A DNA stretch of 64,000 bases from Pseudomonas sp. DTU_2021_1001937_2_SI_NGA_ILE_001. Its GTDB lineage: Bacteria; Pseudomonadota; Gammaproteobacteria; Pseudomonadales; Pseudomonadaceae. Positions 42,228 to 45,544 of this stretch are shown piece by piece. The stretch lies in assembly GCF_032463525.1 (NCBI RefSeq), contig NZ_CP135971.1, forward strand, positions 2,604,001 to 2,668,000, given 5' to 3'. The translations under genes and the position numbers were made by a program. Under the pieces are notes generated by a model. That model was not told the DNA's origin and did no database searches. It worked only from the letters and a program-made list of their open reading frames with translations. The stretch's first letter is position 1, and each line of letters begins with the position of its first letter.

Positions 42228-44129
42228 TCAGATCGCGCCGCGCTTGCGCAGCACTTCCAGCACCTGACGCACGCCCTCTTCCACACCCACCTGTTGGGTA
42301 TCGATCACCAGGTCGGCATCCAGCGGCACATCGTAGGCAAAGGATTCGCCCGGGATGTTGTCGCCACCGGCGGCGTACAGGCCCTGCGGGTCACGCTCAC
42401 GGCATACGGTTGGCGATGCCTGCACGTAGACGGTGACCAGACGATCCTTGCCGATCAACACCTTGGCCTGCTCGCGGCCTTCGGCATCCGGCGCGACGAA
42501 GGCGGCCAGGGTCAACAGACCGGCTTCGTTGAACTGACGCGCCACGTGGGCGGCACGACGCCAGTTCTCGGTACGCCCGGCACGATCCTGCGGCAGGCCC
42601 TTGTTCAGGTCATGACGCAGGTTCTGGCCGTCGAGCACGTAGACCGCACGGCCCATGTCGAACAGTTTGCGCTCCACGGCATAGGCCAGGGTGCTCTTGC
42701 CCGCACCGGACAGGCCGCTGAACAGCACGGTGGCTGGCTGCTGGCCGAAACGCAGCGCGCGCTCTTCGGTGGACACATGAGCCTGCTTGCCGTGCTGGCC
42801 ATTGCCACCGTGCGGTAGCACCGGCGGAGCGATGATCATGCCGGCACCCACGGTGCCGTTGGTCAGGCGGTCGATGACGATGAAGGCACCGGTGGTGCGG
42901 TTGCTCTCGTAGCCGTCCAGAGCAATGGAGGCATCCAGAGCCACCTTGATCCGACCGATCTCGTTGAGCTGCAGCGCGCTGGCCGCGCCCTTCTCCAGCG
43001 TGTTCACATCGACCTTGTGGGTGATGCTGGCAATCGAGCCCGGCACGTAGCTGGTGGCGCGCTTGATGTCGTACTTCTTGCCCGGCAGCATCGGTTCTTC
43101 GGCCATCCACACCAACATGGCGTCGAACTGATCGGTGACCGGCGGAACGTTGTCGGCGTGCACCAGCAGGTCGCCACGCGAGATATCGATCTCGTCTTCC
43201 ATGGTCAGGGTCACGGCCTGGCCAGGACCGGCCTGCTCCAGCTCGCCTTCATAGGTGACGATGGATTTGACGCGGCTGCTCTTGCCCGACGGCAACACCA
43301 CCACTTCGTCGCCCTTGTGCACGATGCCGCTGGCCAGGGTGCCGGCGAAGCCGCGGAAGTTCAGGTTCGGACGGTTGACGTACTGCACCGGGAAACGCAG
43401 GTCGGTGAAGTTACGGTCGGCGGCGACTTCCACGGTTTCGAGGATTTCCATCAGCGCCGGGCCTGTGTACCACGGCGAGCGCTCGCTGCGGTTGACCACG
43501 TTGTCACCCTTGAGCGCCGACATCGGCACGAAGTGCAGGCTGCTCGGCGTCAGGTCGATGGCCTCGGCGAACTTAAGGTAGTCGGCCTTGATCGACTCGA
43601 AGACCTGCTCGTCGAAGCCTTTGAGGTCCATCTTGTTGACCGCCACGACGATGTGCTTGATGCCCAGCAGCGAGGCGATGTAGCTGTGCCGACGGGTCTG
43701 GGTCTGCACGCCGTAGCGGGCGTCGACCAGGATGATCGCCAGGTCGCAGGTCGAGGCGCCGGTGGCCATGTTGCGGGTGTACTGCTCGTGGCCCGGGGTG
43801 TCGGCGATGATGAACTTGCGCTTGGCGGTGGAGAAGTAGCGGTACGCCACGTCGATGGTGATGCCCTGCTCACGCTCGGCCTGCAGGCCGTCGACCAGCA
43901 GCGCCAGGTCGACTTCTTCACCGGTGGTGCCGCTCTTCTTCGAATCACGGGTGATGGCCTCGAGGTGGTCCTCGTAGATCATCTTGGAATCGTGCAGCAG
44001 GCGCCCGATCAGGGTGCTCTTGCCGTCGTCGACGTTGCCGCAGGTCAGGAAACGCAGCAGTTCCTTGCGCTCGTGCTGGGCCAGGTAGGCGAGGATGTCC
44101 TCGCTGATCAGATCAGATTGGTGACTCAT
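42228..44129 (-). CDS. cysNC: Sulfate adenylyltransferase subunit 1 / APS kinase fusion
   Basis: CysN is the GTPase subunit of ATP sulfurylase; it couples GTP hydrolysis to APS formation by CysD. The fused CysC phosphorylates APS to PAPS. The 633-residue protein has EF-Tu-like motifs [17 protein letters not shown] and NKMD, then beta-barrel domains, and from about residue 450 the kinase P-loop GLSGAGKST with [14 protein letters not shown] chose ATG 44129 ([13 protein letters not shown]). Its apparent SD, GGAG (44139-44142, 9 nt away), lies in the inverted repeat of the inserted element upstream. cysD, its partner, lies beyond that element. Confidence 0.96.
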
Positions 44130-44132
44130 GGG

Positions 44133-44166
44133 TTCAAGCTCCAAGCTGTAAGCTTCAAGCTGCAAG
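44133..44166. repeat. Inner-cysNC-side inverted end (heptamer array)
   Basis: Five tandem heptamers on the plus strand (TCAAGCT, CCAAGCT, GTAAGCT, TCAAGCT, GCAAGCT; 44134-44168). On the sense strand the second-last unit reads AGCTTGG AGCTTGA and so creates GGAG, the apparent cysNC ribosome-binding site. Confidence 0.8.
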
Positions 44167-44181
44167 CTTGTCGGCGTACAG

Positions 44182-44523
44182 CTAGTTAGAAATTTTGTTG
44201 ATCAGCCCGCTGAGCATTCTCGACAGCTGGCGAGTTTCATTAATCCACTTGTCAGCCAGTTCAGCAGATAGATAGCCGATCTCGGCAGCGATGATCAGTT
44301 GCGTGCGCAGCTCTGCACAGGAAGCCTTTGCAACGCCGAGAAGCCAGACCTTTTCTCTCCAACTCAGACGTTCCATGCCTTCGGCAATGTTGGAAGGGAT
44401 GGACACCGCCGAGCGGGTAATCTGACCTTTGAAACCAAAGTCTCGGCATTCCTTGAACACCTGATAGACACCGACTGCCAGATCCTTGCTTCTCCGCCAA
44501 ACCGACAACTTCTCAAAATCCAC
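44182..44523 (-). CDS. Four-helix-bundle protein (S23/IVP/Avd-like family)
   Basis: The 113-residue protein shows the family pattern: an N-terminal [21 protein letters not shown], the highly conserved [18 protein letters not shown] (residues 36-52), then helical [18 protein letters not shown]. Such proteins are encoded in 23S rRNA intervening sequences and, as Avd, in diversity-generating retroelements; they form basic pentameric four-helix bundles and bind nucleic acid in known cases. I chose GTG 44523, 8 nt after AGGGAG. An open frame continues upstream into cysD but has no ATG in the element. No reverse transcriptase or rRNA is nearby. Its role here is unknown. Confidence 0.85.
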
Positions 44524-44597
44524 TGCGGCCACTCCCTGTGAGCCCGCAGAGCAGGCTGCAAACGACAAAAGCCAGAAACTACTCGCTCCGTTGGCGT

Positions 44598-44631
44598 CTT
44601 GCAGCTTGCCGCTTGTAACTTGAAGCTTAGA
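44598..44631. repeat. cysD-side inverted end (heptamer array)
   Basis: The plus strand reads CTTGCAG, CTTGCCG, CTTGTAA, CTTGAAG, CTTAGA, the inverted and more diverged partner of the 44133-44166 array. The cysD stop codon (44627-44629) lies inside it. As sense RNA the two ends could pair at 29 of 34 positions, counting three G-U pairs. Confidence 0.78.
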
Positions 44632-45544
44632 AGTAGCCTTGACGTTTCTTGTCTTCCATCGAGCCGGCGCCATCGTGGTCGATGACACGGCCCTGGCGCT
44701 CGGACGTACGGGTCAGGAGCATTTCCTGGATGATGTCCGTCAGGGTCTCGGCCTGCGACTCGACGGCGCCGGTCAGCGGGTAGCAGCCGAGGGTACGGAA
44801 ACGCACCTTCTTCTTGACGATGCGCGCTTTCTCTTCCTCGGAGAGGTGCTCGAGGATGCGTTCGTCGTCGATCATGATCAGGGTGCCGTTCTTCTCGATG
44901 ACCTCACGCTCGGCGGCGAAGTACAGCGGCACGATCGGGATGCCTTCGAGGTAGATGTACTGCCAGATGTCCAGCTCGGTCCAGTTCGACAGCGGGAACA
45001 CGCGGATCGACTCGCCCTTGTTGACCTTGCCGTTGTAGACGTTCCACAGCTCGGGACGCTGGTTCTTGGGGTCCCAGCGGTGCTTGCTGTCGCGGAACGA
45101 GTAGACGCGCTCCTTGGCCCGCGACTTCTCTTCGTCGCGCCGTGCGCCGCCGAACGCGGCATCGAAGCCGTGCTTGTCCAGTGCCTGCTTGAGGCCCTGG
45201 GTCTTCATGATGTCGGTGTGCTTGGCACTGCCGTGAGTGAAGGGGTTGATACCCTGTGCAACGCCCTCGGGGTTGACGTGGGTGATCAGCTCCAGGCCCA
45301 TTTCCTCGACCATCTTGTCGCGGAAGCGGTACATCTCCTGGAATTTCCAGCGGGTGTCGACATGCATCACCGGGAACGGCAATTTGCCCGGGAAGAAGGC
45401 CTTGCGTGCCAGATGCAGCATCACGGCCGAATCCTTGCCGATCGAGTACAGCATCACCGGGTTATCGAACTCGGCGGCGACCTCGCGGATGATGTGGATG
45501 CTTTCCGCCTCCAGCTGTTTCAGATGCGTCAGTTTGTCAACCAT
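44627..45544 (-). CDS. cysD: Sulfate adenylyltransferase subunit 2
   Basis: CysD is the PP-loop catalytic subunit that forms APS from sulfate and ATP, with CysN as GTPase partner. The 305-residue protein has the PP-loop motif [58 protein letters not shown] and [14 protein letters not shown]. The C-terminus ends in KKRQGYF, the usual family ending, so the protein is intact even though its stop codon lies within the inserted element's inverted end. About 230 bp upstream separate it from the Nif3-like gene and probably hold its promoter. Confidence 0.97.

Follow-up and report, generated by a model that had tools for sequence, protein, structure and literature searches.

Introduction

The closest described systems are the intervening sequences (IVSs) of 23S rRNA genes in Leptospira and Coxiella, which carry an S23p open reading frame (ORF) in sense orientation inside terminal inverted repeats and are sporadically distributed. 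In the Coxiella IVS, according to the available part of the published account, the S23p ORF is preceded by tandem heptamers (GACAGAT, plus a variant) whose number varies between strains, and the authors regard expression of S23p as improbable and its ORF as decaying and attach more weight to the RNA, a view which speaks for an RNA role in Coxiella (PMC4990558). Whether the S23p ORF has a role in IVS mobility has, on the same account, been a question since the early 1990s. Avd, which is related to PF05635 and belongs to the same superfamily as the IVP protein, is essential, with the reverse transcriptase, for retrohoming in diversity-generating retroelements (PMC10053308, available part). The cassette described here differs from those retroelements in that neither a reverse transcriptase nor template and variable repeats are known within it and in that it has heptamer ends. 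REP/RAYT systems and MITEs are small hairpins in the gaps between genes, which occur in many copies, carry no gene and depend on a protein encoded elsewhere. The gene-less hairpins described below are likewise small, intergenic, multi-copy and devoid of a gene, whereas the ends of IVP elements are heptamer arrays.

Heptamer arrays have a literature of their own, comprising TAACTGA arrays in Beggiatoaceae, Cyanobacteria and Bacteroidetes (PMC4679880), GGGAATC of Xanthomonas and GGGGA(C/T)T of Nostoc (PMC4692102), and the four-unit heptamer elements of Geobacter (PMC2700814). As far as the available text of these three papers goes, the arrays are, like the arms of IVP elements, mostly intergenic and patchy across phyla, with inverted pairs noted in Xanthomonas, and the explanations offered are translational or global regulation, G-quadruplexes and slippage; for the bacterial excess of heptameric repeats the available part of PMC4692102 holds a slippage hypothesis only. 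The terms S23, helix bundle, intervening and Avd were all absent from the main text of PMC4679880, in the part that could be searched. S23p-bearing rRNA IVSs, Avd and heptamer arrays lacking a settled explanation are therefore in print separately, to judge from the available parts of these sources. S23/IVP genes outside rRNA joined to heptamer ends were not found in the open-licence literature searched, beyond the Coxiella rRNA IVS heptamers, and the IVS literature searched described no operon copies, no paired heptamer arms as a general rule and no gene-less derivatives.

Here we describe an IVP cassette in a Pseudomonas sulphate-assimilation operon, which we regard as reasonably probable to be a long-resident member of a widespread family of IVS-type mobile elements, with heptamer ends recognised by its own protein and with non-autonomous derivatives. 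The shared design, one gene with inverted heptamer arrays, in operons as well as in rRNA and with gene-less derivatives, joins the puzzle of S23p mobility to that of the heptamer excess and, if true, would give a function to the common uncharacterised family TIGR02436.

The cassette between cysD and cysNC

The window (the whole stretch of 64,000 nt that was analysed) carries on its minus strand a gap of 497 nt between the cysD TAA (44629-44627) and the cysNC ATG (44129), with the following features:

44627..45544, minus strand: cysD, upstream host gene (ORF boundaries, comparison of cys loci)
44598..44628, minus strand: 5' arm, heptamer array AAGCTTC AAGTTAC AAGCGGC AAGCTGC AAG on the gene strand (arm alignment, lag-7 score)
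44182..44523, minus strand: S23/IVP/four-helix-bundle gene, 113 aa from a GTG that is Val4 of the longer reading, pI 9.3 (PF05635 and TIGR02436 profiles, 2gsc match, start-codon comparison)
44135..44168, minus strand: 3' arm, heptamer array in inverted orientation, reading CAAGCTN inwards (arm alignment, lag-7 score)
44139..44142, minus strand: GGAG within the 3' arm, 9 nt ahead of the cysNC start codon (sequence)
42228..44129, minus strand: cysNC, downstream host gene (ORF boundaries, comparison of cys loci)

The 5' arm begins within the stop codon of cysD. The arms, 31-34 nt long overall, are 81% complementary over 31 nt (44598-44628 against 44136-44166), and both this match, equalled by 2 of 5000 first-order Markov resamplings, and the 7-nt period, whose lag-7 scores in the two arms were reached in 3/5000 and 0/5000 resamplings, are beyond chance. 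These results confirmed the initial annotation, which had placed an S23/IVP gene within inverted heptamer arms in a gap counted there as 499 bp and had put the arm identity at 26/34, near the computed value. Its description of the cassette as IVS-like is supported as well, by the inverted repeats that bound a sense S23p ORF at its two ends and by the same architecture in a 23S rRNA copy described below; in contrast to the rRNA IVSs, the cassette lies in an mRNA operon, at the cysD-cysNC gap, and not inside an rRNA gene. The IVP protein is the sole recognised product of the cassette, in which no transposase, recombinase or reverse transcriptase gene was found. Inspection by eye showed no clear target-site duplication at the cys junctions, at the Pseudomonas sites A-C or at the Scalindua ends treated below. 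Through its GGAG the 3' arm seems, from the sequence, to supply the cysNC ribosome-binding site.

The family named in the initial annotation was borne out by the profile searches (PF05635, E 9.5e-30, 103.4 bits against a curated cut-off of 33.8; TIGR02436, E 4.7e-31, 107.2 bits against 24), and PF05635 had this single gene in the source genome. The solved structure 2gsc (protein XCC0516) was matched with an E of 1.4e-14 and 2rld weakly (0.0036), each entry having five chains. The GTG at 44523 is preceded by AGGGAG, and an alternative GTG at 44532 would give 116 codons; at the position of 44523, ATG was found in 74 and GTG in 16 of 94 Pseudomonas-type loci, and no codon was found in four. The IVP gene is under purifying selection in Pseudomonas, with a median dN/dS of 0.084 and no value above 1 in 798 pairs (drawn from 87 loci of the same length, pairs 2-25% apart in nucleotides).

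Heptamer arrays across the IVP family

The IVP loci compared are a non-random sample, made up of the best matches in genus and phylum samples (298 and 299 genomes, respectively), 80 of 150 close relatives, most of the further matches in 17 genomes selected for holding such relatives, and three plasmids. Of 250 profile matches, 231 were of full length and flanked by 250 nt on either side, and these were condensed to 73 representatives less than 60% identical, which come from several phyla and include cyanobacterial and Bacteroidota plasmids.

A lag-7 array (score of at least 10) was present on at least one side in 62 of the 73 representatives (upstream in 48, downstream in 44, on both sides in 30) and missing on both sides in 11, as compared with 14 of 283 distal control pieces taken 650-1150 nt away. 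The best lag in high-scoring flanks was 7 in 61 and 8, the next that is not a multiple, in five, and 7 was still the commonest best lag in the high-scoring distal controls (5/15). At one locus (L175, genome G488) the best period was 8, with scores of 14 and 15 against lag-7 scores of 6 and 5, an octamer variant of the ends. When the upstream arm was compared with the reverse-complemented downstream arm, the median was 29 within loci and 16 across loci; the inverted match reached the cross-locus 99th percentile in 46/73, the direct orientation in 12 and the reversed-only control in 3 (0 of 10000 permutations), and significantly inverted arms were missing in the other 27.

Arrays had a median length of 4.5 units and a mode of 4 (34 of 92 arrays, the score floor removing short ones); a correspondence of one array, of five units, to one pentamer is suggestive only. 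A fixed 5+2 layout of the heptamer was dropped as a rule, its signal being weak: the two most variable phases were adjacent in 17/35 where one third was expected, and the circular autocorrelation was null. Units of different elements include gtaggca, agtagtg, gtgaggn, ggcttan, aactgan, aaaaggg and caaatnn, and the aactgan type, which flanks several IVP genes here, may be compared with the TAACTGA arrays in the available text of PMC4679880. Read inwards, the upstream arm is poor in C and rich in G (10% and 37%, respectively, in 46 elements).

In the same number of elements, arm mismatches comprised 46 of the wobble type and 39 of the A-C type (p 0.52), besides 94 transversions. Tested by wobble asymmetry, the idea that the arms are constrained chiefly by selection for RNA pairing was thus not supported, and with no G-U bias RNA pairing is not clearly what maintains their similarity.

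Heptamer unit and protein

The heptamer unit goes with the protein and not with the host. Between genomes, mean unit identity was 0.53-0.56 for proteins less than 55% identical, 0.71 at 55-70% and 0.78 at 70-85% protein identity, and it reached 1.0 above 85% (nine pairs); the corresponding values within a genome were 0.40-0.58 below 55% and 0.86 above 85% (one pair). In 207 pairs at least 55% identical that carry arrays on both members and whose flanks have no detectable homology, the mean was 0.67 against the background of 0.53-0.56, and in 107 pairs with flank homology it was 0.83, the pairs of this comparison not being independent. That the heptamers are a property of the host genome was rejected, because 105 same-genome pairs of divergent IVPs (<55%) do not share units above the background level.

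These data bear on the idea that hairpins in gaps grow by 7-nt slippage and have their arms equalised by template switching, the IVP genes being passengers of a DNA repair artefact. Slippage growth and template switching could make such arms with no binding protein at all, array lengths are dynamic, the arm mismatches are unbiased, and the heptameric repeat excess of bacteria is known, polymerase slippage having been proposed for it (PMC4692102, available part). We nevertheless hold this explanation to be quite improbable, as distal controls show period 7 far less often than IVP flanks do, in which no other lag comes near it, as the units are tied to the protein and common to unrelated loci, and as dispersed copies with a fixed end exist (see below).

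Genomic positions of IVP genes

The IVP gene was co-directional with both neighbours in 51/73 representatives, as judged with a rough ORF caller, which makes mistakes in GC-rich loci, including the window's own cysD. Neighbouring proteins matched Pfam in 17 of the 20 searched, and the gaps so named include pyrK-pyrD, exbD-exbD, wzm-wzt, lysA-dapA and serS-surE; for rfbB-rfbA, manC-manB, sulphate permease-cysC and groEL, the naming relied in whole or in part on inspection of the translated neighbours by eye. Two different IVP genes (L244 and L189) stand in tandem just before an rfbA-like gene, identified by eye, in genome G601.

Two identical IVP copies (L215 and L216) were located inside 23S rRNA of genome G513 in sense orientation, the only ones in 23S rRNA among 12 other loci scanned with Rfam. 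Their arms consist of TCAGGAA TCAGAGT TCAGGAA TTAGGTA TCAGA and, in inverse orientation, an imperfect counterpart; this genome has two more IVP copies, outside rRNA, with other units. As heptamers are found in this rRNA copy and in the Coxiella IVS, as in the cassette, the rRNA and operon forms look, by their sequences, like one kind of element.

Such a likeness would suit an element that acts purely as RNA, whose arms pair in the transcript so that RNase III excises the cassette and leaves it harmless, the heptamers being mere slippage products of the hairpin. When the window cassette was folded as RNA, the whole of it was closed by the arms (MFE -200.9 kcal/mol, z -3.18, 0/100 shuffles as low), and the same architecture recurs in the 23S rRNA copy. 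According to the available part of PMC4990558, RNase III cuts a published rRNA IVS in vitro, one in which heptamers precede the S23p ORF, and the authors weigh the RNA above the protein. The co-directional placement in 51/73 also agrees. Against this stand the lack of G-U bias in the arm mismatches (46 versus 39, p 0.52, with 94 transversions) and the purifying selection on the protein in Pseudomonas, and neither the linkage of unit and protein nor the gene-less families with a fixed end would be explained, so that we rate a purely RNA-level IVS as possible though doubtful.

Distribution and inheritance in Pseudomonas

PF05635 was present in 34 of 298 Pseudomonas genomes (the source genome included) and absent in 264. 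In all 34 (30 loci and the other four genomes) the gene is in the cysD-cysN gap, and it is interrupted or only partly matched in four (G020, G055, G086 and G155). Empty sites, in line with the initial annotation, were found in 18 of 20 IVP-less Pseudomonas junctions inspected, where 2-15 nt separate cysD from cysN; the remaining two (L134 and L139) hold degraded remnants with the 3' arm. In these decayed cassettes the gene and the 5' arm are both largely gone, and the 3' arm with the likely cysN ribosome-binding site is kept.

In a 50-genome cysD/N tree (IVP present in 30, absent in 20), 15 presence changes were counted, 11 of which are forced by well-supported branches, about the same as the mean of 15.9 obtained with shuffled labels. 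The IVP protein distance tracks the cysD/N distance (30 genomes, Mantel rho 0.54, 0/2000 permutations). These two results and the purifying selection indicate largely vertical inheritance with repeated loss and with function mostly kept: the Pseudomonas cys copy is an old resident. Recent hopping of this copy within Pseudomonas was rejected, all 34 being at one site. The source genome yielded no second full cassette, an outcome that the initial annotation had listed among those refuting its view, and hence no pair of copies that agree throughout between differing flanks, and the Pseudomonas sample yielded no second site. The order cysD-IVP-cysN was found outside Pseudomonas too, in Halopseudomonas, Marinobacterium, Exilibacterium and Deltaproteobacteria, and cysD is beside the IVP gene in 68 of the 80 loci from the 150 close relatives; plasmid searches for relatives gave 21 records, all below 60% identity and none from Pseudomonas, and phage searches gave no match. 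The mobility proposed in the initial annotation accordingly holds for the family elsewhere, in the Scalindua copies below, and is not supported as a fresh or mobile insertion in this Pseudomonas lineage, given the single site, the Mantel correlation and the order cysD-IVP-cysN beyond the genus.

An IVP protein that serves the sulphate-assimilation operon, for example by tuning cysN translation through the 3' arm, with the arms being regulatory, is in our judgement unlikely. Its absence from 264/298 Pseudomonas genomes is hard to reconcile with such a host function, and members of the same subfamily occur at manC-manB, at sulphate permease-cysC, after groEL and between sugar-nucleotide genes (names partly by eye), with distant members in pyrK-pyrD, exbD-exbD, wzm-wzt, lysA-dapA and other gaps. 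What speaks for it is the recurrence of cysD-IVP-cysN in Pseudomonas and the four other groups listed above, the clustering of cys-site IVPs in a poorly resolved tree (10 rows, five changes, 0/500 shuffles as low), the dN/dS of 0.08 and the likely Shine-Dalgarno sequence in the 3' arm.

Copies in Candidatus Scalindua

In a Candidatus Scalindua MAG (G597), copies agree over their full length and, some shared repeats aside, have unrelated flanks. Two of its IVP loci (L280 and L284) share 88% identity in an alignment of 423 columns that starts shortly before the gene and runs through the 3' arm to its last base, and their 5' arms are 86% alike over 37 nt; some 50 nt beyond the 3' arm are still alike (76-77%), and the flanks are otherwise unrelated.

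A query of 261 nt holding a gene-less form of 151 bp gave 51 matches in G597, partial ones and the arms of the IVP copies included. Together, 30 of these matches and L280/L284 contain at least 22 different gene-less copies of full length (130-157 nt, 72-100% identity), and in 22/22 the left end is TAAGCACC or differs from it by one change. They fall into 10 groups by left flank and eight by right flank; as the largest groups have 9 and 13 members, nesting with other repeats also occurs. The 151-bp element (L284:2821-2971, L385-L413) is often followed by a conserved taatttt..tggttctggctcgtcc, and another repeat stands before it.

Gene-less hairpins in Pseudomonas

In the source genome the pattern CAAGCNNCAAGCNNCAAGC gave 15 matches at nine places (0 for the reversed control), and both inverted arms, by a simple pattern, were present at five of the nine. 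Counts of CAAGCNN, which are overlapping pattern matches and not arrays, were at least 8 in 34/34 IVP-positive genomes (8-255, median 45) and in 14 of 42 IVP-negative ones (up to 133, median 2; p 5e-8), 76 genomes in all. With independent pairs on the tree and a threshold of 10, 5.7 of 11 pairs went in the same direction and about 0 in the opposite one (median p 0.03); the median p was 0.03 at thresholds 8, 10, 20 and 36 and 0.06 at 30. The association between IVP and gene-less arrays is thus a correlation.

CAAGCNN numbers differ strongly between sister species, as in G215 and G157, both IVP-positive, with 249 and 8 matches, respectively. Comparison of a 19-kb stretch of G215 with six relatives revealed presence or absence of hairpins at three sites, and in some relatives the heptamer hairpin of sites B and C is replaced by a repeat judged REP-like by eye. 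The gene-less hairpins are about 80-200 bp long, often contain AAAAGC...GCTTTT and may act as terminators. G113, G110, G170 and G215 have up to 255 CAAGCNN triple-unit matches per genome, many of them in short inverted hairpins, and the frequent AAAAGC..GCTTTT cores of these resemble bidirectional terminators.

At the ahcY-metF junction (L285-L309), an IVP-less spacer with heptamer arms and a very variable interior was present in 12 of the 15 readable Pseudomonas loci, and heptamer arms were absent in the other three (G012, G008 and G014). With 15 of 25 loci readable, nothing was concluded on this hairpin as a clean insertion site.

Discussion

Matching ends, the linkage of ends and protein, copies alike from end to end and gene-less copies that keep the ends together point to a mobile element with an end-recognising protein. 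Such an element comprises one gene, for a small basic protein of the four-helix-bundle family, between inverted arrays of about 4-5 heptamers, and resides in transcribed gaps, of operons or of 23S rRNA, mostly in sense orientation, presumably being expressed from the host transcript. The arrays are the ends of the element, with its own unit on both and that unit tied to the protein, which we infer to bind the array of its own element and to promote movement with host enzymes, rarely of full copies and more often, in trans, of gene-less hairpins. No catalytic domain was found in the IVP protein, so cutting and joining would fall to the host, and no nuclease is known in the IVP protein family. 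Because the copies are in transcribed sense positions, an RNA or cDNA intermediate would be attractive, and the cassette transcript may itself be processed.

Several observations count against a mobile element: the IVP-less genomes with at least 8 CAAGCNN matches, the contrast between G215 and G157, the p of 0.06 at threshold 30, the 27/73 representatives lacking significantly inverted arms and the 11 with no array on either side, lag 7 as the commonest best lag in the controls and the flank shared by L280 and L284. To these are added the lack, in the cassette, of a transposase, recombinase or reverse transcriptase gene and of a clear target duplication, the single Pseudomonas site with one full copy in the source genome, and the view of the Coxiella authors on S23p.

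There is a substantial chance that IVP-heptamer elements deserve a class of their own. A broader proposal, to which we give somewhat less than even credence, is that S23/IVP genes constitute a large mobile class devoid of transposases, in which a ring-forming protein would read the heptamers of the ends, with roughly one unit per subunit, and, together with host enzymes, would propagate both full and gene-less copies; rRNA IVSs would then be those members that had inserted into rRNA, and some of the bacterial heptanucleotide excess would be the footprint of the class.

Heptamer arrays beside IVP genes might have been mistaken for CRISPR arrays. In the available part of a CRISPR survey, the legend of a figure on association scores names '23S rRNA IVP' (PMC10910872).
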